From positions 14,143,584 to 14,207,583 of the forward strand of contig NC_092692.1 in assembly GCF_964275005.1 (NCBI RefSeq): 64,000 bases of DNA, in the 5' to 3' direction. Shown here one piece after another: positions 3,101 to 58,500 of this stretch. The translations under genes and the position numbers were made by a program. The number at the start of each line of letters is the position of its first letter. Positions within the stretch are counted from its first letter, which is position 1. Origin of the DNA: Diadema setosum (lineage: Eukaryota > Echinodermata > Echinoidea > Diadematoida > Diadematidae). Under the pieces are notes generated by a model, which worked only from the letters and a program-made list of their open reading frames with translations, ran no database searches and had not been told where the DNA came from.

Positions 3101-6100
3101 ATTTAGTTTGGCTTAGAGTGCAGATATTTCATGAGAGCACATGTCACAGGAGCAAATGTCATAGAACCATGGAGAGTAGGTCTTTACCCCAAGGACATTT
3201 TGAGACCAAGGTTTGACTTACTTGTACGAGCCATCGAGGGCGTGCTGCGTGCTGCGGACCTTCTCTCTGGCCTCGTCTAACTCTGCCTTCAGCGATGCGA
3301 TCTCCTTCTCCTGTCTCTCTACCGCCAGGTTCAGGGTTTTGATGGCATCTGGAGAGGCATTCACATATTTGGATTACAATCAGACAATGGAAATATATGT
3401 ACAATTGCAGGTTGGGAATGCAGTCGAATGTCCGAAATACATTCAGAGGTTGAGACTGCAGTCGGAGGTTGGAAATACATTCACAGGTTGGGACAACAGA
3501 CAGTAAGAGGTTGGAAATGCACTCAGAGGATGAAAATACATTCAGAGGTTGAGACTACAGATAGAGGTTGGAAATCCACTTTGAGATTGGAAATTATACA
3601 TTGATAGGTTGGAAATACATTCGGAGGTTGAGACTACAGTCAGACGTTGGAAATACATTCAGAGGTTGGGATTACAGTCAAAGGTTGGAAATACATTCAA
3701 AGGATGGACATACATTCCTAGGTTGGAAATGCCTCAGGGGGTGGACTACAGTCAGAGGCTGGGAATAACTGCCTGATCATTCAATTTGTATACTAGATTT
3801 GTGTTTAATACTTATCACCTAGTACATCCCTGTGGTTGTACATTTCATTTTGTTTGTGTTGTTTTTTTCCTTGTTTGTGGCTGTAAGGCCCTGCAATATT
3901 TAATATTTCACTCGATTTTCAATACTCTGTTTATAAGTACATAATTATTTGTAAATAATGATTTGTAATCGTCTATCACTTCAGCTGTTCGGTCCTCATC
4001 GCGTTACTGGTAATTGCCACACCATGAAATGGCTCTCCTCATTAAAAAGAATAATAGATAAAAATCTGGGCGTGTTTTGATGGTGTCTAGTTTCTAATCC
4101 CCACGAATATCTGTCCTAGGAAAAAGTATATCTCATTCATGAATGATCATTTTCCTTCAGTGAAATCAAGTTTCAATTTGGGTCTTTTTTTTTTTCTTTT
4201 TTTTTTACATATTCTATTGCAAACAAAGCTCCAGCTCTACAAGCAATTCTTGTGTAAGCTCATTCAAAATTATCTTTTTGCTTTTACAGATTCAAATTTC
4301 ATCTTCATTTTTTTCTAATATTGATTCATCATATACTCTGTCTCTACAATTGCACACAAAGGTGTGATGTCAATCATGTGTAACTTGCACTGTCCTAAAA
4401 ATGAAACAATCCTTCCTTTTAGAAACAGAAAAGACAGATGACGACAATGACAATCTACTTTGAGATCAGCAAGACTTAACTCAGTTCTTATCATCGCACA
4501 AAAAGGTTGCTAAAGTTGCTGCTGTTGTGAAAACAGCAGTGACAGTATGCTGATATTGGCTATCTCTCTCTCTTTTTGTTTTTGTTTTTGTGTTGTTGTT
4601 TTTTTTGGCTGTGTTAGTTGTATATAATTAAGTACAATTGTAACTCATCTCTGATCACTATGCATGGGAAGCATACTGTTTTGTTTTTTTTTTTTTTGAC
4701 ATGAATATATTTCATCTCTCCTCACAAACATTATACTACTGTGTATATGAAATGAAGTAAATCACCTTTCTGTTTCTTTTCCACGTCTTCCTTGCCATTC
4801 AGTACTTCTTCCAAGTGTTCCACTCTGCCTTCAGCCTGCTGAAGCTGTTCCCTGTATCAAATTGGGGGTGACATAATATGGCATGAATTGGGGCTTGGCA
4901 TACCAGCAATTTGCCATACAGAAAGAGTGAAACAACATTAACAGCAACAACAAATTTATAATACTACACAGTATTGCAACATACAAAAATAACGTAACTC
5001 TGAGAGTCTCAAGTGATATACAGCTGTTGCAAAGTTCTATAGGGCCAGACAAAAATTAAGTTAGCAATTTCCAATCTCAATTTTCTAAACTTATTAATTG
5101 GCTGCAGATTATCTTCTTCTTTTTCTTTTTCATGACATGTCCTTCACATGGTCCCTAGATATTTCAACCTCTTTCAAATGGAGGCAACAATATTTGAGCC
5201 TTACTCATCAGTGTAACAATTTTCAAGCTGTCATTACACTTCTGTTGTGCAGAGCACCAACATTTTACTGCTATCTAGCTCACATTTCACATCAAAACAA
5301 AAAACAGATGGTTTGCCTGATTAGGAGACTATGCTATATTCCATTAGGCTGGATGTAATTAGTTGATTATTAGCATGCATGTTCCAGCACTTGGCTAGAC
5401 GAGATATGAACAAGTAATGCTGCATAAACATGTGGCAGAATTCCCATGACGGAAAGTTACCTTTACACCTATAAACTTTACAATGCAGAAAAACATGCCC
5501 ACTGAGTGACATTAACCAGATGCAGTATGGATCGATGATTCTGTACATTCAGTGTGGGCATTCCAGTACAATCCTGACTGCACATTTGTTCATTATTTAC
5601 AGCTTTCACAGTCTCAATTTGTCTTTTGCCATTTGAAATATAGACTCTGGCTCTATAATAGTTCCCATGTAAGTGAAACAGGACCCAGGTTTCTGCAAAA
5701 ACATTTTGCCTGAACTGCCAAGAAGCTTTGATACACTCGAGTTGTACATATGCTGTACCCTTCCGATATGTTATATTGGGATATGCCACATCCCCCCAAA
5801 AAAAACAGTAAATAAAAATAAATAAATAAATAAAGAATAAAAAATCAATCAATAAATCAAAAACACCCATAAACAAATACGAACAACCAAGCAAACACAA
5901 ACACATACAAAAAAAAACAAACAAACAAACAAAAAGGAGCCTTGAACTGTAAACAAGACCGGCAGGGCAAGAAGCCACTCACTTCTGCGATTTCACAAGT
6001 TTGTCCGTTTCTTTCTCCTTGGCCCGCAGCTTCTTGATGATGGTGGAATTCTGGAGCTGTTGCTTGGACAGTTTCTCTCCTTCCGTCAGCAGCTCCGCGA

Positions 6101-9100
6101 TCTGCTCGTCCTTTTCGGCAAGGAGCTTTCCCGTTGTGTCGCTCTTCTCTCTGCACCAATAAATCAGAAAAAGGTACAAAATTTCTGACTCAAGTGGGGA
6201 CAAAAGTGGATGATGCGGATACGAGAGACTGACAATTGCGTTGTATGGATTCCTCCGCCAAGAAACCACAATAGAGGTCCTATTCAGACGGAAGATTTTC
6301 ACTTCAAGGACACCCTAGACAAAGGAGTAATTAACAGGTCTCCACTTGGTTCTCTTTTGGAAACGGACACCGTAGCTTCAAGGACTGTGGTGTGCAAAGA
6401 ATAGTGCAGTATGTGAACTGCTCATCTTTCGCTAGGGTAACCAACTTTGTGGCTGTACTTTTTTATTCCACTTAAGGATTACAGGATGGTTTTCTTGGAA
6501 CATGTTGCGATTTTGGTTAACTTTTTTTATTTTGCCATCAGCTTTTCTTCACAATTTGCCATAAAGAGAAACAAGCTAACCTTGTGCACTGCAATGCATC
6601 ATGTGACACTTGACAGGCATCAGGGTAGAACGTGACAAAATGTCCTTCCTATCAATGATTTATTTCATACAGTAATGTGATACATTACAGTCAGCAACAT
6701 GGGTTGCTGTCTTATCAGTGTGCATCAAAACTGCTGAGCTGACATTAAAAGAACACTTTTCCTTGTGCTTATGCATTATCTGGGCTTTGAAAATACTAAA
6801 GTCTACTATACCAGACTTAACCCTAACTAGGCCGAGGGGGGCCTCCGAGGCCCCCCCCCCCCGACGTTCCGCGCGATGTATCACTAACGTGAAAAGCTAT
6901 CGCCGCGACGTTTCATGACTTTTTTCTGTCGAGTCTCCCGCATCTTTTGACACCAAATTTGCGATGCCCGGGCACGCGGTTCCGAAGTTTCGCATAAATA
7001 TGTACATGCATGTCAGACCAAAAATTGCTCAAAAACGTGAATTCGTGTACAATTTCAATGGAAACTGTGCTTACAGTCAAATTTCATAAAAGCATTATTA
7101 TTTTGGGGCTTTATTGATTAAAATCAACTAATAACATATTTTCTCGTTCAGAACAATGTCGCGGACAAGTTTAATCGAAAAAACAATGGAAAACATAAAG
7201 TCGAAAAAACAAAGAAATACATAAAAAATTCAAAAAACAATAAAATACTTAAGAAATTTTTTTGGATGGCTCAATTTTTTTCTCTTATATTTGCTTAGGA
7301 CATTAAAAAGAATATTTACACAAAAAAATGTGCCCATTTCGGGCTTTATTTAGTGATTTATACCAAATTGTCTGATTTCATGCATCATTATGCATAAATT
7401 AGCATAATTTAGCATAAATGACAATTTTTCGAAAATCTAACTTCGTAGTACTTTAGATTACATCATGGGCAATGTGTGTGCCAATTTTCGTCGCGATCGC
7501 GCGGTCGACGGCCGAGATCTAGAGGGGGGGGGGGGCCTGGGAGGCCCCCCCCCCCGGCTCTATGATCTACCAAAATAGCCCGGCCTAGTTAGGGTTAAAC
7601 TCCAGACTTATCACATACTGTAAAACGAGGAATGTTCCAGGCAGAGGTATCTCCCTTTTCAAGAGATACTTGGGGTTGGAGAGTCTGTGTAAATGTTGGG
7701 GGTCAATATGGCAATGGACAAAGAAAATGAAAGGACCTTCTGGAAGAAAAACTGGGGTCAACTGCGGACATGACATCATATAACTACAACATGCATGAGG
7801 AAGACTTCAGGAAAACAAACAGGACACAGTGTGTCCATCACAGGACCAGCAGTGCATGTGCTGCACTTTTATTGTAGGATGAAGCACGCACATCAAGGCT
7901 GCACTGCCCCATTTGGTATAAATTAAGTTAAATGGGGGGGGGGGGGTTGTTAAAAAAGAAAGAAAACAGCGATTTCAATGTTGATGTGCATGACAGCCAA
8001 CAAATGACATTCACTTCCTGTTTCATGGAAGTAGCCACACATGGAAGGACCTCCCCTTTCCCCTGTTGCAGAATTTTAACCTCTACCTCATTGCAAACAA
8101 ACCTGGTACCAAAAACTGCTTATCAATATCACATGTATCTACCAAAGCCCCTTTGACCCTGCCCCCTTTTTTCTTACTTTCTAGGTACAATGAGGGTTAA
8201 TGTTTTGCTTCATTGCAGCCCTATTTTAATATGAATTGCAAAAGATTAAAAAGTGAGGATCCTAGCAAAATCCTGAATGACACCACACTTAACTATTCAT
8301 GGCAGGAATCATCAAATGTAATGTTGACGAAACAATGCATATCTATTTGTATTTCTTGTGACGATGCCAAATGATACTGATAATGTAATAATAATTCTGC
8401 TTGTAATGATAATAATGATAATGACAATGATAATGACAATGATAATAACAATGAAAATAATAATAATAATAATAATAATGATAATATCATCATCATAATA
8501 CACAATATTACACCACAGATTTTACTCACATGTCATCAAGGGCCTTCTGCATCTTCTGCGAGTCCTTCTTGAACTGGTCTCGCTCGCGGTTGGCCGTTTG
8601 CAGCTTCTTTTCCATGGCGCTGATTCGCTGGGTGAATTCCTTCGTCAGCTCGTCCACGTCGTACGACTCGCTCTTGCGGGCCTCTTCCGATTCATGCACT
8701 TGTCTGCAGTTAATGTAAAAAAGTTGATGTGTGCCATGAACATAATGTGAATGTGCACATGGTTCATGATATCCCAAGTGCTGTTTGAAACAATGGATGA
8801 ATGCGTGTAATGAATTTGATCCATGTCATAATTGAAAATTAAGCCGTCGTGTAGCGAGATGAGGTGAAAACTTGGCAAGTGATTGTTGTCAGTCAAAACA
8901 AATGATAGTAGCCATATTTACCTTATGTGAGTACTATATTCCTACAATGTCATGAACATTGAGAAGATGCTAGGATATTGGCAAGTACATCATACATAAT
9001 AATTAGGGAAAGAAAAAGAGAACTAAAAGTAGGCAATATGTTTTGAGATATTTGACAAAAGTCAAGTATACTAGACAGTGTCTCAAAATAGCACCTTTGT

Positions 9101-28599: not shown

Positions 28600-28708
28600 T
28601 CCCCAGTGGCGCAATAGGTTAGCGCGCTGTACTTATAGACAGTACCCAGCGCCGTCTGGCTACACTGTAGGCATGCGGAGGTTGTGAGTTCGAACCTCAC
28701 CTGGGGAA
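28600..28708 (+). tRNA. tRNA-Ile (anticodon UAU) with an intron
   Basis: Acceptor stem TCCCCAG (28600-28606) pairs with CTGGGGA (28701-28707). The D-arm region TGGCGCAATAGGTTAGCGC and T-arm GTTGTGAGTTCGAACCTCAC match animal tRNA-Ile(UAU) closely. The anticodon stem CTGTA (28627-28631) pairs with TGCGG (28674-28678) using G-U pairs. Anticodon TAT is at 28634-28636 and an intron of about 35 bases follows A37 (28638-28672). A T-run terminator (TTTTCTTTT) begins at about 28715. Metazoan tRNA-Ile(UAU) genes characteristically carry such introns, removed by the tRNA splicing endonuclease. Confidence 0.93.
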
Positions 28709-32707: not shown

Positions 32708-33588
32708 TTAAAGATGGCCCTTCCCTTTTGCATTCCTTCCCAAATAGCAGAGAACATGATATATTCTACCAGAATGACAAGACTATCGTAAATCTATAAC
32801 ATTTCTGTGATATTTGAAGGTTGTTAGCCGTTAAAATTCAAATAATGCACCAAACGCTCACCGTAACGTATTCTGTGTACTAGGCACAGCTACATACATT
32901 AATCCTCCTGTGGTTGTAATAACAATATATTATACTTCGAACAACAGATATGCATGTTAAAGCTGTCAGAAAAGAAGAATTCACTAGCTTCTCTTACTTT
33001 GTTATCAATGACAAATAACAACACACCACTTACATGAACTACATGTACAACTAAGTGCATCACACAGGTCTGTAAAACTAGACTAGTATTTAGATTTGTA
33101 ATTTTTGCGTAGTTCGCAAAAAAATTATTCAAATCTTAACGGTCAATTTAACTAAACAAATAAAGACCCTCTTGAGTTCAAAATTTACAGGAGGTTTCCA
33201 AACAGTGTTTTCTTCAATAGCTAAGTGTTCTCACCAATTTTTAAAAAATTTGCATGCAAAAGGAATTGGCTGTCTTTAACGTTTTGCGATACGTTGTATA
33301 ACACTTCGTATGTGACATTTTACATGTTTATGATAGAATTACATACATGTGTGTGTGTACGTATAGATGTCAGCAAAGTGCAGTTTGAAATTCAGTTCAT
33401 TATACTTTTGACATGAAGCGGAATACACCGCATATCGAATTGTATGCGCTAGAGAGAGATATACGGTAGACTGAAATAACAGAGCGAATGGAATTCAGAC
33501 TAAGGATGACGCACGTATACTCGGATGAAGTGCGTCGGATTGCGCAATACGCCATAGGTTTATAAGTTCACTTTCACGTTCACTGTCG

Positions 33589-33708
33589 GTGTCAGCTCGA
33601 TAAAGTGGTTACTTCGCCTGATTTTGTATTTACCACCAGCGGTGAATTATGGAACATACCATGGGGATCGAGCCCCATTAGAAACCACGAACGCAATCTG
33701 GCACTTTT
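33589..33708 (+). ncRNA. vtRNA: Vault RNA-like polymerase III gene, locus 1
   Basis: About 116 nt plus a T-run. GTGTCAG (33589-33595) pairs with CTGGCAC (33698-33704), followed at once by TTTT. The 5' part reads CAGCTCGATAAAGTGGTTACTTCG, close to the conserved AGCTCAGCGGTTACTTCG of vertebrate vault RNAs (box A). GGGGATCGAGCCCC (33663-33676) fits box B. The 3' part has ACCACGAACGC, near the GCGGGCGC element of vault RNAs. TATAAG at 33561 lies 28 bases upstream of the start, as polymerase III genes with upstream TATA do. Vault RNAs bind major vault protein particles. It differs in sequence from the two duplicated copies, so it is a separate paralogue. Confidence 0.75.
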
Positions 33709-33722
33709 GCCACGCGAAGACA

Positions 33723-33741
33723 GATAATAATGATAATAATG

Positions 33742-33814
<73 letters not shown>

Positions 33815-33820
33815 TAATAG
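33723..33820. repeat. (AAT)n microsatellite
   Basis: Nearly uninterrupted ATA repeats starting about 15 bases after the terminator of the first vault RNA-like gene. Frames across it encode poly-Asn or poly-Tyr and are not genes. Confidence 0.95.
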
Positions 33821-33824
33821 TAAC

Positions 33825-33974
33825 AGGGGCAGATCCAGGAATTCGCTAAAGGGGAGGCGCCTTTACAAAAGGAGGGCGCATCCCCCCCCCCCCGCATTTT
33901 TCTTTTTATTCCGTTTGTTCAAAACAAATAAAGAGGGGGCGCGCGCCCGGTGCTCCCCGTCTAGATCCGCCACT
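33825..33974. mobile_element. 150-bp element of the GGCAGATCC family
   Basis: AGGGGCAGATCCAGGAATTC at the left mirrors CTAGATCCGCCACTG at the right. A long C-run lies inside. Related elements are at 36760 and 38191. Confidence 0.6.
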
Positions 33975-34277
33975 GAATAATATTGATTTTATAGAAGAAT
34001 AAAAACGTTCCGCGGCCATTCATAGGAGTGTTGCGCATATTCAAATTGAAATGTGAAATAGTCATCTGAACGATTCCCCACTAGCGGTCTCCAAAGATGA
34101 CAGCGAATGATTTGAACTTTGGCCGTTCTTATATTAAATTATTCAATACTCATGTACCATTTAACTTGAATAAACATTCAAGGGACGAAGTTCAAACTCT
34201 CATGAATTTACAGTAATCCCTTCAAGAGGCCGATTATCCCTAACTTTAAAACACTAAAAATCGCTCACAGAGCAGAG

Positions 34278-34395
34278 CTGGTCCATTCTAAACAGTGGTT
34301 ACTTAGTAGTTTTTGCACACGGGGGTTCGAACTTAGTATTTTGCACACGGGGGTTCGAACCCACGTGAGGATCATGCGCGCAACCTGGCACTTTT
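34278..34395 (+). pseudogene. Degenerate vault RNA-like locus with duplicated box B
   Basis: The 3' part matches the intact loci: GGGGGTTCGAACCCACGTGAGGATC, then GCGCGCAACCTGGCAC and TTTT (34392-34395). GTGGTTACTTAG (34295-34306) retains most of the box A side motif. The 5' stem partner of CTGGCAC is not recognisable. A block of about 26 bases containing CACACGGGGGTTCGAAC is present twice, giving two box B copies. TTTAAAA near 34245 may be a remnant TATA. I read it as a decayed paralogue; the start is by analogy. Confidence 0.55.
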
Positions 34396-35188
34396 GTTGC
34401 CATGACGAGGAGCTATTTTACACCGGAAACGAATTGTGATTTGATTTGATTTGATTTGATTTATTCACAAAATGCATAAACATACATTATTCACAAATAT
34501 GTACATAGTTTGTACATGAAACATGTTATTATACATTTTGTGTGGATCGTCATAAGCTATGAAAAGCTTGACTGGGACGTCCAGTATGGATAACGTACAC
34601 ATAATATGTACATAAACATCATACAAAACTTTTCTAAAACTCTCTAACCATAAATCATCGTTGATCGTCAATTTAACAGGTTTCTCTTGAAAAATTTGTT
34701 ATTATTGTGAAATGGAGAATTTTTCTTGGGATTCTGTTTTCACCGGACACTCACGGTGGTAAAAGGATTCTTGAGAAAATGTGCCGGAAGAGAGGTTGGT
34801 TATTAATAATTTTGTTCTCATAATCAGTATCTTGTTTTACCTCCAAGTATTTTTGTTTTTGTTTTTGTTTTCTTTTTCTCATCAATCTCTTTTCTCTAGT
34901 TTGGTCCTAAGTTGAACCCGTGTTCCTTACCTAAATCTTCGCCCTTGGTTTCTCTACTGGGACCTAAAACATGATTACTTTTAAGTAATTTTATTTGCAT
35001 TTCTCTAGCATTTTTACTCAGATTCAAATTTTCATAAATTGATCTCCATGTTTTATGTTTGTAATAAGGGTATTATTCTATTATGTTCATCCTAGCTGGA
35101 TATGTCATTCCTCATTCTGTTTTGTTTCATTTGATGTGTCTTTCATTGGGAAATATGAAACTAAATTGAAGTGAAATTGAAATACTAG
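34396..35188. other. Intergenic stretch without recognised genes
   Basis: Contains a short (TTTGA)n tract at 34437-34462. Otherwise it is AT-rich sequence with no frame, RNA gene or bounded element that I recognise. Confidence 0.55.
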
Positions 35189-36038
35189 TAGTTTCTACAT
35201 AAAATCAAAGAATAGATCTGATCAATGTAAAGGAATGTATAAAAAAAAAATATGCAGTTCTACGCCCCCCATACACGTCTTTTGCACTAGCAATAAACTG
35301 TCACGCAAACCCATTTTGAAAGAAAGTTAAAGACAACGATGGTTGAAAGAGTACTTGCAAGAAAGCCCTAATCTATAATTATGCATTTTGCCGCAAACTG
35401 ATGATGCGATTAGGCTGCTTTCATTTTGAATGAAGTGCAATCCAATTCACTGAAACTCATCTCTTATGTTATTTGGTGAGTTTATCGTAAGTAATTACAA
35501 CACAATTCTTGTTCTTATTTCACAGTTATTAAGATAAGATGATAAGGAAAAAATAATTAAATTAGGGTCTTAATGTAAGACCCTAAAAAAAGAAAGAAAG
35601 AAAGAAAAAAGGTGAGCACTTTATAAACCAAATCAATTGTATTCCTTTTCAGGGATAGGTCAGGTCATTCTTTCTTTTTTAGTTATCTTTTCTTTTTCTT
35701 TAGAAACAAAGATGGAAATGTAAATGAAATGAAGTGGAGTGATATGAAAACACGGGATTTTTTTCGAACTACTCAATATTTTTGTCACATTCTGTTGATT
35801 TTTAAATTACTGCATAACATTCGGCCCATATACATTTAAGGACTGTCATGAAATCGGGGAGGGGGAGGGGGTAGTACTTACCCTCACGTTCCGTACGTGG
35901 TACATGGTTTGAGCATGAATCATGCGCATCTGTACAATTGAATGGTCGCAGCTGAGGGATGTGTGGGCGGGGCTGCCACATTCTTGGTCAAAGTACTAGT
36001 ACAAGATAAGCATGAGTGTAGTGTACTCCTACTCGCTG

Positions 36039-36046
36039 TATAAATA
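36039..36046 (+). promoter_or_regulatory. TATA box of vault RNA-like locus 2
   Basis: TATAAATA begins 29 bases before the predicted start at 36068. A GGGCGGGGC box lies about 100 bases upstream. The same element occurs in the duplicate (37857-37864), and a TATAAG occupies the same position at the divergent locus 1. Confidence 0.7.
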
Positions 36047-36067
36047 GCAAATTGTGCGCCCTCTGTC

Positions 36068-36191
36068 GTGCCAGCTCGACATTGTGGTTACTTCGCTTTG
36101 CCTTTGATCTATTCGCCAATTGGATTGCTTCGGACGCTATGTGGGGGGTTCGATCCCCACGTAAGAACCACGGGCGCAAACTGGCACTTTT
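36068..36191 (+). ncRNA. vtRNA: Vault RNA-like polymerase III gene, locus 2
   Basis: GTGCCAG (36068-36074) pairs with CTGGCAC (36181-36187), then TTTT. CAGCTCGACATTGTGGTTACTTCG matches the box A region of vault RNAs. GGTTCGATCC (36147-36156) is a perfect box B within a GGGG/CCCC stem. ACCACGGGCGCAAA corresponds to the GCGGGCGC stretch before the 3' stem in human vault RNA. The RNA would be about 120 nt, within the family's range. It is not a tRNA: no anticodon arm can be drawn, and about 22 bases separate the T-arm-like hairpin from the closing stem. It is identical to the copy at 37886. Confidence 0.8.
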
Positions 36192-36242
36192 ATATCCTTA
36201 ATCGAGTTTTTCTTCCTTATTTCCACATTGATTGTCAATTAA

Positions 36243-36624
36243 AGGGATCGTATAGTTTTGGTTAAGACCTAATTTCAGGTTTCTAACATTATTTGGTGAG
36301 ATAATGAGAAACCTCTTATGAAATATGAAAGAGCATGTAATTCCATGAGGAATTCAATGTTTATTTGATGAAAATTGGTTTTGAAATGGCTGAGATATCC
36401 AAAACAGAGTGATTCCAATAAAGTGTGGGACCTACATTTTATTACGATCGCTTTGTTTTACTTTGTTTATGGATGTTTCAGTCATTCTAAGCCCGATTTT
36501 CATCAAATAAACTTTGAATTCCTCTTAAAATGGTATGCTCTGTACTATTTCATACGTGTTTTCTTGGTATCTCGCAAAAAATTAAAAGCCCAATTTTCAT
36601 CTCCACCAATACTGTACCATCCCT
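36243..36624. mobile_element. 382-bp TTAA MITE, AGGGATCGTATAGTTTTGG family (copy 1)
   Basis: Ends AGGGATCGTATAGTTTTGG and CCAATACTGTACCATCCCT are imperfect inverted repeats between TTAA (36239-36242) and TTAA (36625-36628). The duplicate unit has the single uninterrupted site CAATTAAGAAAG near 38055, so the target duplication is directly shown. A second copy is at 56383. Confidence 0.93.
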
Positions 36625-36759
36625 TTAAGAAAGTACGATTTGACCCTTGATAATTCTTGAATGCTGTTCTGGACTATAACTCCTACATTCCGAATTTCAT
36701 TTTGGTTGTTTTGTTTACTTGTTTTCACCTGTTTGTTTATTTTTCATTTTTTTTTTTAC

Positions 36760-37014
36760 CAGTGGCAGATCGGGGGGGGGGGGGGGAGGGGCATCAGGCG
36801 TGCACCCCCTTAAATAATTTTGAAAATAAAGAAATGAAAAGAAAAAAAATGAAAGGGAGCACTTTATTTTTTTTAATTGTGAGTAGCACCAGAAAATTGC
36901 ACTGATGCACAGGAGCCTTTTTTTTTCTTTTTGCTTGTCAGCTGATTAAAGCCAGAAGTGGCACCATAAATATTTTTGTGCACCCCCATTTACAGAATTC
37001 CTAGATCTGCCCCT
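36760..37014. mobile_element. GTGGCAGATC element (copy in left unit)
   Basis: CAGTGGCAGATC at the left and GATCTGCCCCT at the right are imperfect inverted repeats. A G-run and GGTGCACCCC-like sequences lie inside. It is shared with the right unit, so it predates the duplication. Confidence 0.6.
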
Positions 37015-37885
37015 ATTCCCACAAAAGAAAAAACAACTAAGATTACACTGTGGCTCTCACAACACTTGAAAGCAGGCCTTCAGTTCATGAGCGAAAGCAA
37101 GAAAACACACACATAGTTTCTACATAAAATCAAAGAATAGATCTGATCAATGTAAAGGAATGTATACAAAAAAAAAAAAAATATGCAGTTCTACGCCCCC
37201 CATACACGTCTTTTGCACTAGCAATAAACTGTCACGCAAACCCATTTTGAAAGAATGTTAAAGACAACGATGGTTGAAAGAGTACTTGCAAGAAAGCCCT
37301 AATCTATAATTATGCATTTTGCCGCAAACTGATGATGCGATTAGGCTGCTTTCATTTTGAATGAAGTGCAATCCAATTCACTGAAACTCATCTCTTATGT
37401 TATTTGGTGAGTTTATCGTAAGTAATTACAACACAATTCTTGTTTTTATTTCACAGTTATTAAGATAAGATGATAAGGAAAAAATAATTAAATTAAATTA
37501 AATCTTTTCTTTTTCTTTAGAAACAAAGATGGAAATGTAAATGAAATGAAGTGGAGTGATATGAAAACACGGGATTTTTTTTCGAACTACTCAATATTTT
37601 TGTCACATTCTGTTGATTTTTATATTACTGCATAACATTCGGCCCATATACATTTAAGGACTGTCATGAAATTGGGGAGGGGGAGGGGGTAGTACTTACC
37701 CTCACGTTCCGTACGTGGTACATGGTTTGAGCATGAATCATGCGCATCTGTACAATTGAATGGTCGCAGCTGAGGGATGTGTGGGCGGGGCTGCCACATT
37801 CTTGGTCAAAGTACTAGTACAAGATAAGCATGAGTGTAGTGTACTCCTACTCGCTGTATAAATAGCAAATTGTGCGCCCTCTGTC

Positions 37886-38009
37886 GTGCCAGCTCGACAT
37901 TGTGGTTACTTCGCTTTGCCTTTGATCTATTCGCCAATTGGATTGCTTCGGACGCTATGTGGGGGGTTCGATCCCCACGTAAGAACCACGGGCGCAAACT
38001 GGCACTTTT
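37886..38009 (+). ncRNA. vtRNA: Vault RNA-like polymerase III gene, locus 3
   Basis: Sequence-identical, base for base as read, to 36068-36191. GTGCCAG is at 37886-37892, GGTTACTTCG at 37904-37913, box B GGTTCGATCC at 37965-37974, closing CTGGCAC at 37999-38005, TTTT at 38006-38009 and TATAAATA at 37857-37864. Upstream sequence is also conserved, so both copies should be expressed if either is. Confidence 0.8.
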
Positions 38010-38190
38010 ATATCCTTAATCGAGTTTTTCCTCCTTATTTCCACATTGATTGTCAATTAAGAAAGTACGATTTGACCCTTGATAATTCTTGAATGCTGTT
38101 CTGGACTATAACTCCTACATTCCGAATTTCATTTTGGTTGTTTTGTTTACTTGTTTTCACCTGTTTGTTTATTTTTCATTTTTTTTTTAC

Positions 38191-38444
38191 CAGTGGCAGA
38201 TCGGGGGGGGGGGGGGGAGGGGCATCAGGCGTGCACCCCCTTAAATAATTTTGAAAATAAAGAAATGAAAAGACAAAAATGAAAGGGAGCACTTTATTTT
38301 TTTTAATTGTGAGTAGCACCAGAAAATTGCACTGATGCACAGGAGCCTTTTTTTTTCTTTTTGCTTGTCAGCTGATTAAAGCCAGAAGTGGCACCATAAA
38401 TATTTTTGTGCACCCCCATTTACAGAATTCCTAGATCTGCCCCT
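38191..38444. mobile_element. GTGGCAGATC element (copy in right unit)
   Basis: Near-identical partner of 36760-37014 carried along by the segmental duplication. Confidence 0.6.
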
Positions 38445-38820
38445 ATTCCCACAAAAGAAAAAACAACTAAGATTACACTGTGGCTCTCACAACACTTGAA
38501 AGCAGGCCTTCAGTTCATGAGCGAAAGCAAGAAAACACACACATGCCAACAACAACAGCAACAAATAAGTCGTCCCAATCACTCGCATCCAGACATTCCG
38601 ACTTTTACACGACTGGGGGCAGGGAAAAGTCTATTACTCTCCATTAACAAGTAAACTATCAAAGACTGAGGCAAAATGAAGTTACTATTACACTTAGCTA
38701 TAGAGACAAAATAATGTTCCGGTTCAGAACAGAGGATCCAAAAGTGATGGGCTTGATGAATGTATGCAGATAATCAGGGAATGGATTAATACATGTATGT
38801 AAATGAATAAAAGTGACATA

Positions 38821-52500: not shown

Positions 52501-55500
52501 AAAACAAGTAAGAATGCGTAACAAGCAATAATACTTGTACAGACTGTTTTTACTCAGTGAGTCCCTTTGCTGACCATAAACAATCCGTGTGTTCTACATT
52601 CAAAGTACATGTACTGGAAATAGCATGGTGTTATCGATACTGCTATGCTGCTGTCACAGCCCACGAGGAATGCTATACCTCGGCTTACAATGTAGTTACT
52701 AGGTGAGTGCAATCCAGCGCTGACATGGTTGAATTTTACATGCAAACGTGTATCATTCTTATTATATACGACGAACAGGTTTTAAAAAAAATTGTCTCAT
52801 ACAAAGTGAACACAATATGTGGACAGAATTTCCCTTTCACCCGTTGAAGATTAGTCAAGTATACTCGGGCAGGTATCTATGAGAAATGTGTCTTAAAACA
52901 AAATCACCTTGTCCTCAACAGGTTAAGAAGAGAAGAGCTATGTAGGTGGTAAAAATGTGAAACAAAGGAAATAAGGAGGTTGCACATGCTATCAAGGAAG
53001 AAGGACAGTAGAGAAGCTATCAAGAAGAGCAAAACACTTGAATGTATCCTACAAAATAGAATGTTGTGTTTCCCACACATTGAGATGTTTCACACGTACT
53101 TCTTGGCAGACCGTGTCTGAGAGCTCAGCCGACTCCACGGCCGCTGGTAGCCAGACCGCTGCCTTGCAGGCTGGGTAGCCCATACAGCTGACCATCCATC
53201 CCCCTGTCTTCCTCTCCTTGAGGGACATGGGCTGACCGCACTGGGGACACGACCGGACGATGGCCGGGGTGCTCACTGGTAGGGCTGGATGGGACAGAAT
53301 GAGAATGTATTCCAATCTACTCCAACGTCTCTCCCTTGTTCCCTCCCATCAAGATGCATTTAAAGTCAATTCACTTCAATTCATTCAGCGCAACAATCCC
53401 TATATCTTTCCATATATCTGGAAAAAATTTTTGTTTGTTTGTTTAAGCAAATTGGAAATCATTATAAAAAAAGGCATTGAATGTAACTCTGAGAAAAGAG
53501 TACAGCAAATGCTTGTATACAACACACAACATGATGCTACAATACATTTTATAAAACATAATACATTGACCCCAAAGTAAATGTAAAATGTTAACAAAGT
53601 AAAATATCATAGCAGTATTAACATATCAAGGAAGACCCACATGCATGCCTTAATGCATTCCTGAGCATCTACTCTCTCTTTTGCATCTTAATGCAATAAT
53701 GGTTGAGCTACTTTTCAATTACACTTTAATTCCAAATTCCCCATCCCCATCCCCCAAAACCCCCTCCCAAAAGAACAAAAAACAAAAACAAACAACATGT
53801 ATACAAGCATACACACGAGCATGACATCGATAAATTATGCTCAAGATCCACTGCTCAATAAAGGGAGAATAAAGTACTTTCAAGAAACATCTAAACACTC
53901 TCTTCCATATAATTCTGAAGTTGGAATGATTAGTCATATATCTCTTGAGATAAACCCTATTTGTTGATTAATTCCAATCCATTCACAGATGATTGTTTTC
54001 AACATTCTGGAATATTTACCTTACTGTGCTACCTTCCCTAATATGTATCAAATTTCTACCCATCAATAATCCACTGCAATACTTATTTTGATTTCAGCTC
54101 ATATAACAACTTCAATTCTGACTTGTCTTCTAATTAAAAGTCAACATTCCCTATTTAGATTCATTCTTACCAGCAGCATTCTGTGACTGGGCTGGCTGCC
54201 CCAAGTACTGCTCCAGGGCATTATCAAGTGTTGTGGCCTGCACAGATGGGACAAAAGCACAGATTCTTCTTAACTCATTGAAGACTAGTACTCAGACAGG
54301 TGTCTGTGGAAAATGCATCATAGTAAACCCAGCTCGTCCTCAATGGGTTAAAAAGGAACAATACTAATTTTGTTCTCATACATTTTGAGTATTGATATAC
54401 ATTGAGTTTCAGTCATCAGAACAAGTACTTGGCAGGGGTAAAATGAAGTGACTTCAATAATCTTCATCACCAGTTCTACAAACAGTATCAGCACAATCAC
54501 AAATCATGAGGTATACATGAGAAGTGCTGTGAGATAAAACTGACTCGGCACAATTGATGCACTTCAGACTGAAAAACAAAAGACAGTATGACCTGTCATG
54601 TCAACTGAGATCTAAAAAGATGTTAACACTGTTCAAAGTCTTTGGAGCTAGCACTCCTTGTTCTCAAATAGCTACTTGTCTCTATAATCTTCACACTGAT
54701 ATACCATGCTGATATCTTTTCAAACGCTCAGTGCGGCAGAACCAGTGAATGATTCTGATGACTGTATGTTGCTGTATCTAAAAAGATAGTTCCAACGGGT
54801 GAGTGAATTTTGCATTTGAAAAATGTATGAAGTGCATTTTGTATGAATGCCCACTGAAATCCTGCAGCAAGAAATGAGAATGTGACTGTTCTATGAGGAC
54901 ATGAAAAAATGCATACATTTATGAAAAGAAAAATCATTACAATGATCATGCTACAGGCAGTGATTGAAACGTACACACCTTCCGAGCTGCCTCGATGAAA
55001 ACTTGCTTGTATTTTTCCACTTGCTCCCCAAGGACTGCGTCAGGATTTTTCTGGCCATCACATATTCTACGGAAAGTGCCACATGCAAGGTTTTTTGTTG
55101 CATATTTGATCACAAATAAACAAGAAATTTCCTTACACATATTTGCCACAATAACAAGTTCTCTCTCGAGGGAGACTTTTTCTTCTTTTATTTATTGTTT
55201 CATGGCACAGTGCATAACCTCCAATTTTTGCTAGGTTTTTCTTTCAAATACTAAGCCTTTCAGAAAACTATAAGCATAATTCAATGATCCATTCATATTG
55301 TGGCATATAGAGCACCATTTTGTATTCAACAAACATGTTTGAATCTGCATTCAATACTTGCTCGCTCACAAAATGCTTCTTTTAAATCATAACATAAATC
55401 ATATGATATCTATCCATCTGAATTTTTGTTCTTCCTGTTGCATTTGTTTCTCTTCTTTTGTCTGATTTGTTTTTCTGGGTGAGCACTCTGATTTGTTGCT

Positions 55501-58500
55501 TTACTTTCTATGACTTTTCATACATATACACTGTAGATTAATAAGTAAATGGTAATAAGAATGAGAATGATATTTCATTAATGATGGTTTCTATTGTACT
55601 ACTTCAACTTGTGATACTACTCACAATGATAATCATCATCATTATCATCATCACCATCTATGCATAATTAAGAGGAAGAAAAAGACAAGTAGATACAATT
55701 GTACATTCATCATAAACCATGTTTAATGAGGGACTTACTTCTTGAGGTCTGACTCCAACTCTGCCCTCAGGTTGGGCTTGGAGAGCTCATAGCCCATGTT
55801 GTCGTACCCTTCCACCAGCCCCATGCCCAGTTCTCCTGGCACCAGCCTACCGTCTGGCCTCACCCCAACGTACAACCTTGACTTGATTGTCTCAATGTGC
55901 TCTGCATGGGTAGCATCAGTGCCTGCCAGGATTAGTTAAAGACATGAGTCATGTTTTTGTCTATTCAAGGGATGAACTATGGTTGGACATGAAATGACTT
56001 TATCCTCTTCATTCTTTTTTTTTTTCTTTTACTAATGTCTTCCATGCATAGTCTTTATTGCACATGTAGACAAAATGTCAAAATGTACAACACAGCAACA
56101 TCCTTTCAAGCAATTTCATGTAGTGGTTTATACATCCATTCTGACATTGACCACTGCCATCTACAAAAAAAGGTTGAAAATCTATATGATATCTGTCATG
56201 GTTGTTACGAGGCAATGTTTCACATGCTGCATTCTGCTAATGTTGCAGAGAGTATGTATCCTTCAAATAGTATTAGTCCCAATGACATTTATTCTATGTT
56301 TACTGTGCAGAATAGAGTACAAGCATCAATGCAAACAAATCCCTGCAAATACTAAGTAAACGATTGACACAATAATGTTTAAAGGGAACGTACAGTTTTG
56401 GTTGAGACCTAATTTCAGGTTTCTAACATTTTTAGGTGAGATAATGAGAAACCTCCTATGAAATATGAAAGAGCAAGTAATTCTATGAGGAATTCAACGT
56501 TTATTTGATGAAAACTGGTTTTGAAATGGCTGAGATATCCAAAAAAGAGCGATTCTAATAACGTGTGGGACCCACACTTTATTACGATTGCTTTGTTTTA
56601 CTTTGTTTTTGGATGTTTCAATTATTCCAACCCCGATTTTCATCAAATAAACTTTGAATTCCTCTTAAAATGGTATGCTCTGTGCTATATCATAAGTGTT
56701 TTTTTTTGGTATCTCGCAAAAAGTTAAAAGCCAAATTCTCATCTCCACCAATACTGTACCATCCCTTTAACGTGAAGGCCCATTTCCTGTTGAGAAGCAG
56801 TGGTGCTACTGTGCATGATGCTCGTGCAGCAAGCAAGTTTCAGGAAGCTTATGCTTCATCCAACCCTGGACGGGGAAAACGGAGGCCAGGAGCTCACCAA
56901 TGCCATGTTTGTCCATGAGGGAGATCAGGTCGGCTTCTGTGAGGAGGGGTGGTGGCTGGGTCTGACCGTCGGTCATCTGGACAAACACACAGATACGTGT
57001 ACATGCAGACAGAATTGACAACACAATAACATACACTAGAACAATGACTGGATACATTGACTTTATATTGTACGTTAGGTGAAGTGCAAAGATCGTCAAT
57101 TGGAAAATGAATATCAAAAGCTGCCAAATTGGGGCAAAGGTCATTTGATCACCTGCCCCACATGTATTGGTAGGGTCCTGCATTCACACAGAAAATCATT
57201 GTGCTCACTGTCTTTGATTGAAATGAATTAAAAGAAGCATTACCTTATATGGAACAATTGGGGTTTGGGTGGGGTGAACAGATGCAAAAAACGGGTATAT
57301 AATAATATGATGGTGCTTTTTCCCCCTCCCCTCATTTCCTGCACTAACCCTCAATCCCTTGGTGATTCTGTCAACAAGATATATTTTAGTCCATATATCA
57401 AGAGGTTGCATATCCAAGAGGATTAGTATTAATGCTGTTGGCAATCTAGAAGTGTTCAAATGTTGAGTTAAGTCTTGCACTGCTGGTTCTTGAGCCTAAG
57501 ATTTCTAAATGTACAATTCATACTAAATTGCTCATTTATAGCATGACTTGTGATAGGCTGGATTGGCACCTTGTGACACGAATTGCTTTTGTTCTAACAC
57601 ACTGTCTTTGACTGTAATCAAGAATTCTTGCCTACTACAAGAAATGGTGCATGGTTTTGTCATGTAAAAGTCTACATATCTGCAATCCAAGTGTATAGTT
57701 AACCATAATTCAAATGTATTTCAACCAGGCCTTTGCCTACAGTGAAGTGAAAGAGCACAATGGCAAATTAAATGTATGCTGCATTTGAGATCATGCTCTT
57801 CTTTGATTTATATGTTAGCTTCAGACTATCACTGATATATGTCTTTGCATAGTTTGAGAATATCACATTCAATTCATGGCCAACATAGGCAATCTGCAGC
57901 ATATCAAACTGCTCTTTTATTTCCATCCAGTCTAACAGGGCTTTCACCTCTATTGTAGTTGGCTCAAACTGCTGTCCCTCTTCAAAGGTTGGAATGGTCT
58001 TGGCATTCCAGCGGTCATAGGGATAGACGTCGAGGTAGTTACGGGCGATGATCATCAGGCCAGTGGCAGTGAACTCCTCTGATGCTATGGTGATCGCGAC
58101 GATGGTTTCCTTACCTTGTGCATCCTGTAAGGGAAAGATGGAATGATGTGAGACTAACTAGAATGAGAAAATGTAGGAGTTGAGGAGAAGCTATGGCAGT
58201 CAATAGCAAGACTCAATATTTGACATTATATCCTTCCCTACTAAAATGATATTTAGCGATTGGTTTACATGGCATGATGTGACCAAACATAACATTGCTA
58301 TGATGCTAATAATGTTTAAACAAAATACCAATGGAGAAAGATATGTTATACCATGACACCATACCACAAATAGTATGTCATAGATTACACAGACATGCAA
58401 TCAACCACTGTTTTTTCATTGACAGCATGTGTAAAGTACTATCGGTACTGGCCTCATAGACCACCATATAAATTGTGTCCACCCCGGTGTTTTTTTCGTC

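Follow-up and report, generated by a model that had tools for sequence, protein, structure and literature searches.

Three vault RNA-like genes lie on the plus strand of a window of 64,000 nucleotides of the Diadema setosum genome (C8:14143584-14207583 of 912.7 Mb). They are probably RNA polymerase III (Pol III) vault RNA genes and belong, as diverged members at its right-hand end, to a family numbering at least 26. A good many of the related genes appear, from sequence comparison and folding, to carry a transfer RNA (tRNA)-like fold inside the vault RNA outer helices. The genes and their parts are listed below by position in the window. Scores are given for the Rfam Vault model (RF00006, curated cut-off 34 bits) and for R1, a covariance model of our own built from 11 copies of the family including L018:5815-5940, the E-values of which are rough; folds are minimum free energy (MFE) predictions.

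33589-33708, plus strand: vault RNA-like gene 1, 120 nt; RF00006 35.2 bits, R1 weak at 18.6 bits
36068-36191, plus strand: vault RNA-like gene 2, 124 nt; RF00006 39.7 bits, R1 39.3 bits
37886-38009, plus strand: vault RNA-like gene 3, 100% identical to gene 2; RF00006 39.7 bits, R1 39.3 bits
33561-33566, plus strand: TATA-like box of gene 1, from the sequence
36039-36046, plus strand: TATA box of gene 2, from the sequence
37857-37864, plus strand: TATA box of gene 3, from the sequence
33589-33595, plus strand: 5' strand of the gene 1 closing stem P1 in the MFE fold, partner 33698-33704
33698-33704, plus strand: 3' strand of gene 1 P1, from the sequence and the MFE fold, followed by TTTT at 33705-33708
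33605-33610, plus strand: 5' strand of the gene 1 inner stem P2 in the MFE fold, partner 33683-33688
33665-33675, plus strand: box B of gene 1, 10/11 to the consensus
36082-36089, plus strand: 5' strand of gene 2 P2 in the MFE fold, partner 36166-36173
36147-36157, plus strand: box B of gene 2, 11/11 to the consensus and within a hairpin in the fold
36181-36191, plus strand: 3' strand of gene 2 P1 plus TTTT, from the sequence and the MFE fold
37965-37975, plus strand: box B of gene 3, by motif scoring
About 34286-34394, plus strand: degenerate fourth vault-like copy, recognized by eye, with the box B region doubled and the GCGCAACCTGGCACTTTT end retained

The original prediction, made from the sequence alone, had proposed a cluster of three vault RNA-like genes and a search with the Rfam vault covariance model as a check; all three loci exceed the cut-off of that model, on the plus strand, and it has no other match in the window. 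E-values over the window and 4227 families are 5.2e-4 for gene 1 and 2.8e-5 for genes 2 and 3, and genome-wide they are 1.8e-3 and 9.5e-5, respectively, which rules out a chance Rfam match as the origin of the loci. All other Rfam matches within 33400-38200 (Phe_leader, AdoCbl, miRNAs, SmY and others) are below their cut-offs. The parts that the prediction had pointed to, namely the GTGYCAG...CTGGCAC stems, GTGGTTACTTCG, box B, ACCACG(A/G)(A/G)CGC and TTTT, are in the sequence where it had placed them, and the TATA boxes do begin 28-29 bases upstream, at 33561, 36039 and 37857. The closing 5' and 3' ends pair in the folds of both distinct sequences, and box B, TATA and TTTT are present in each copy, with box A reaching at best 8-9 of an 11-base consensus; the D and anticodon arms are missing. 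Gene 1 is assigned to the family because it scores 35.2 bits with RF00006 and shares the motifs, its R1 score being low.

Genes 2 and 3 are identical, including 150 nt of upstream flank, and are situated inside a tandem duplication in which the copy spacing is 1.8-1.9 kb in the left part. All three predicted loci are thus present, but because of this identity they amount to two independent sequences. The cluster of three is likewise real, but it forms the right-hand edge of a 13-copy cluster extending from C8 14084080 to 14181592 (97 kb), ten copies of which precede the window, and it is accompanied by the degenerate fourth copy. The latter (about 34286-34394) has no match to Rfam Vault or to R1, and it folds poorly, with 29 of 200 shuffles folding equally well.

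The genome contains at least 26 vault RNA-like genes; this is a lower bound, as scoring was applied to 49 of 56,520 first-look candidates. With RF00006 at E <= 10 there are 24 places listed, 18 of them above the cut-off and the best with an E-value of 1.6e-8; in control genomes the model finds matches in 7 of 14 at the same loose threshold and none above the cut-off. R1 gives the six sub-cut-off Vault places 32 to 102.5 bits and adds L039:594-723, and L018:5815-5940 was revealed by a tRNA match with vault-like flanks. Similarity is restricted to the genes themselves, the mean identity among the 19 copies used for the flank comparison and the tree being 0.61 inside, 0.48 and 0.47 in the flanks, and 0.46 for random sequence; in the tree a long-branch warning applies to L016 and gene 1.

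A tRNA-like cloverleaf, with part of an acceptor stem, can be drawn above P2 in 17 of the 26 copies, clearly in 15 and partially in two (L036 and L041); these comprise the 11 copies of an alignment that we refer to as A2 together with L033, L038, two copies in L039, L036 and L041. It is absent from the other nine, which are genes 1-3, L012:1893-1980, L013:2939-3023, L016:3635-3740, two copies in L019 and one in L040. L012:1893-1980 (88 nt) and L013:2939-3023 (85 nt) are short forms that have a common internal loss and group with L013:7788-7908 in the tree, L016:3635-3740 is 106 nt long, and the two L019 copies and the L040 copy are 158-183 nt. We note that both short forms are without box B, and they could be pseudogenes or TATA-only genes.

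Transcription signals of the Pol III type are found throughout the family. A T-run (TTTT) ends all 26 copies, box B is present in 23, and 15 have a TATA element whose start falls between -31 and -26, as compared with 3.2% of random sites. In the 17 cloverleaf copies the D and T arms fall on box A and box B, and in five of them the D arm matches the 11-base box A perfectly. The genome also encodes the major vault protein (MVP): the MVP_shoulder domain is matched by three neighbouring exons on C4 and by one place on C18, and a C4 exon has a PDB match, at 3.7e-21, to solved structures of that protein. The C18 match (C18:15016677-15016829) is outside the main MVP gene and perhaps represents an MVP paralogue. 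The vault RNA identity that had been proposed for the loci is thus supported by the covariance matches, the paralogue family, the Pol III-type signals and the MVP gene.

The tRNA-like nature of the core is seen in several ways. Sequence between the outer stems passes the Rfam tRNA cut-off (29 bits) in 12 of 26 copies, with scores from 35.9 to 54.1 bits, and ARAGORN, in a run over tiles of the C8 cluster, C6 and C20 that left out L033-L041, calls seven bodies tRNA, with Glu, Asp and Val anticodons at C8:14.1 Mb and Asp and Gln on C6. RNAalifold, unaided, folds the 11 copies of A2 into P1, P2, an acceptor-like stem of 4 bp and a D arm of 4 pairs, an anticodon arm of 5 and a T arm of 5. In these copies the arms are 88.6-100% paired and P1 is 95.5% paired, and U8, A14, A21, TTC and A58 do not vary in any of the 11. 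Of the seven acceptor positions, just 3-6 are paired in every one of these copies, and U33 is present in seven. In single-sequence MFE folds of the 17 copies, P1 forms in every one with 5-6 of its 6 pairs and the T stem forms in 15. The MFE folds of the two L039 copies (594-723 and 1501-1630) contain a variable arm besides the D, anticodon and T arms, as in class II tRNAs, and follow a register peculiar to these copies.

The pairing is supported by comparison of the copies. In A2, 93.3% of 374 cells are paired, as opposed to 83.6% in shuffles and 35.0-48.8% in slid versions, and 15 of 34 pairs are compensated, with changes on both sides; the anticodon stem alone is 89.1% paired versus 63.0% when shuffled, with a covariation of 0.607 versus 0.149. 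A larger alignment, A3, has 20 model-fitted rows (the 17 cloverleaf copies, the two short forms and a truncated duplicate of L018:5815-5940, but not the three window genes, L016, both L019 copies or L040), and in this 93.0% of cells are paired and 22 of 34 pairs compensated, including all five of the anticodon stem and all four of the D stem. Relatedness was controlled for by taking only the eight C8-cluster copies that have the cloverleaf; their identity is 0.81 overall but falls to 0.67 for the anticodon stem and 0.59 for its loop. Of the 40 anticodon-stem cells in these eight, 36 are paired and six are compensated, and none of 1000 shuffles reaches either value. The pairing has therefore been maintained after duplication while the loop diversified. 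P2 in the same subset has modest support (11 of 1000).

The setting of the genes between TMF1 and TOP3A, as originally described, agrees with Pfam exon matches. A TMF_DNA_bd exon of TMF1 is at 5979-6314 on the minus strand, which falls within the span of the 13-copy cluster, and a type IA topoisomerase gene is indicated by Topoisom_bac at 57768-58157, also on the minus strand, although this match alone, at 28 bits, is under its curated cut-off of 35.1; Zn_ribbon_Top1 at 53049-53348 is above its own cut-off and is in keeping with TOP3A. The vault RNA-like genes, on the plus strand, are thus flanked by two minus-strand genes. There is in addition a tRNA gene at 28600-28708, with an intron of about 36 nt and, by eye, a UAU anticodon, which is absent from the ARAGORN list. 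Several other elements lie among the vault RNA-like genes. At 36239-36624 there is an insertion of about 382 bp that is palindromic in part, is bounded by inverted ends (AAAGGGAT.../...ATCCCTTT) with TTAA duplicated, and looks like a TTAA-target miniature inverted-repeat transposable element (MITE); the empty site beside gene 3 indicates that it postdates the duplication of genes 2 and 3, or that it was precisely lost. Inverted-end elements of the form CAGTGGCAGATC ... GATCTGCCCCT, slightly different each time and MITE-like by eye, occur one near each vault copy, at 33825-33975, 36760-37013 and 38190-38450. A long ATA/ATG simple repeat occupies 33723-33812, soon after the gene 1 terminator.

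The best overall explanation is that these are Pol III vault RNA genes, 17 of 26 with a tRNA-like core under selection, to which, together with the placing of the window loci in the family, we give a probability of about three in four. A number of observations weigh against it. Gene 1 is only 1.2 bits above the Rfam cut-off, and its 18.6 bits with R1 are fewer than the 19.5 bits of a real tRNA at 28603. Box B is missing from three of 26 copies, all among the nine without a cloverleaf, and these may be dead. Compensated pairs notwithstanding, further pair types number 25 in A2 versus 25.1 in shuffles and 45 in A3 versus 42.4, which is hardly more, and A3, having been fitted to the structure, is biased towards it by construction. 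In the eight-copy C8 subset P1 and the acceptor, D and T stems are too invariant to lend support. The three arms appear in the consensus register in the MFE folds of just three of 17 copies (L013:9226-9347, L017 and L038), the anticodon stem forming in only 5 and the D stem in only 8, and for L039 the anticodon register of A3 differs from that of the MFE fold.

One alternative is that the genes are ordinary vault RNA genes and the apparent cloverleaf a by-product of box A and box B retention, with no tRNA-like fold. The D and T arms overlap the two promoter boxes, so that their conservation by itself requires no fold, and all three arms are found in few MFE folds, the three in register and two more in their own. 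The anticodon stem, however, is no promoter element, and it covaries both within the C8 cluster and across the family, while the L039 copies show even a paired variable arm; we consider this explanation unlikely. It is a good deal harder to see the loci as tRNA genes with an unusual paired leader and trailer, the transcript being cut to a working tRNA. Seven bodies are indeed called tRNA by ARAGORN and the Rfam tRNA scores are as high as 54.1 bits, but with 3-6 of 7 acceptor pairs in 11 of 11 copies and U33 absent in 4 of 11 they are better described as tRNA-like domains than as decoding tRNAs, and a decoding role is rejected on these grounds. P1 and P2, moreover, are conserved, partly compensated and bear vault motifs, and the vault parts occur without a cloverleaf in nine of 26 copies, making such a processed tRNA very improbable.

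A family of tRNA-derived short interspersed elements (SINEs), or scattered tRNA pseudogenes, would fit the tandem copies, the degenerate copy near gene 1, box A and box B, and the T-runs; the ATA/ATG repeat after gene 1 could equally be a SINE tail, and the copy number, as a lower bound, leaves room for a larger family. The repeat, however, is found after no other copy within the 40 bases examined, and no flanking repeats of more than 6 bases or A-rich tails are present in 25 copies (gene 3, identical to gene 2, being left out). A DNA search with gene 2 finds exactly two places genome-wide, and one with the core of L018:5815-5940 finds itself and one other vault gene, although such searches see close relatives only and both missed known diverged copies. 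The original prediction had named many hundreds of copies with A-rich tails and target duplications as the mark of a SINE; the tails and duplications are not found, and for copy number there is the lower bound only. With compensatory changes in the family as well, a SINE origin is not supported and is hardly credible. A different question is raised by repeated capture, in which a vault scaffold took up different tRNA genes on several occasions and differences between the donors account for the covariation between groups. This is compatible with Pol III vault RNA genes bearing a selected tRNA-like core, as it concerns origin only. The bodies differ by group in their ARAGORN anticodons, there is a class II-like body with a variable arm at C8:17.68 Mb, and there may be a likeness to Lys and to Leu/Ser tRNAs. 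Compensation is also seen, however, among close copies of one cluster, and for one of the bodies a search that skips very common words turned up no closely similar tRNA gene. Repeated capture is thus rather doubtful.

If the genes are Pol III vault RNA genes with a tRNA-like core, TFIIIC would use the D and T arms as its box A and box B, acting with TATA-bound TFIIIB. The transcript, of roughly 120 nt, would stay whole rather than being trimmed to a tRNA, since P1 and P2 would cap the incomplete acceptor stem, and would join vault particles built of MVP. Its tRNA-like elbow could offer a grip to proteins, modification enzymes among them, that recognize the shape of a tRNA. In the window copies the D and anticodon arms would be gone or replaced, the outer helices and the box-B hairpin being kept, and these copies may have a reduced or different role. 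Vertebrate vault RNAs are taken to keep these same parts. A tentative scenario, for which the odds are not favorable, is that vault RNA is tRNA-like at its root, the ancestral state being a cloverleaf capped by two helices that is retained here, with the vertebrate forms reduced to those helices and the T-arm (box B). In that scenario the anticodon loops, varied on an unchanging framework, might provide each copy with a partner of its own. A tRNA-like domain under selection would make the origin of vault RNA testable, whether it arose from a tRNA gene or captured one, and this one genome would offer a natural series from the full cloverleaf to reduced forms as in the window. Transfer RNAs are among the substrates of NSUN2. 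The same enzyme is reported to modify human vault RNA (PMC9179338), and a tRNA-like domain would be a possible structural reason for it. The apparent tRNA-like fold of the sister genes hints at a kinship between vault RNAs and transfer RNAs.

Comparison with known systems provides a context for these genes. With RF00006 and the vertebrate vault RNAs they share, in the Rfam alignments, a closing stem, GGUUACUUCG, a second stem ending CC...GCGC, box B and a T-run, as well as an arrangement in local clusters. They differ in the cloverleaf between the P2 strands of 17 of 26 copies, 15 clear and two partial, in lengths of 85-183 nt against a model length of 99, and in having TMF1 and TOP3A as neighbours in place of the protocadherins or SMAD5 described for vault RNA genes (PMC10491885). 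With cytosolic tRNA (RF00005) the paralogues, though not the window copies, share the D, anticodon and T arms, U8, A14, G19, A21, TTC and A58, but the acceptor stem is incomplete and continued by P2 and P1, U33 and the anticodon are not conserved, and there is no free 3' end for CCA. Like tRNA-related SINEs they have a tRNA-like head with boxes A and B, but few copies are found, no A-rich tail or target duplications are seen, and the stems covary. No tRNA-like domain in vault RNA was met in the portions covered of the literature searched (PMC550661, PMC7058938, PMC10491885, PMC2770079, PMC8704543 and PMC9179338), a search that did not take in Stadler et al. 2009, the principal study of how vault RNA evolved. 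A sea urchin counterpart is that of Strongylocentrotus purpuratus, in which purified vaults are reported to contain an RNase-sensitive band, taken as vault RNA, with an apparent size of 26.5 kDa (PMC550661), the sequence of which is called undetermined in a review (PMC10491885). Such an RNA is thus indicated in an invertebrate deuterostome; vault RNA genes are therefore to be expected in this genome, and it is the cloverleaf that would be the undescribed part.

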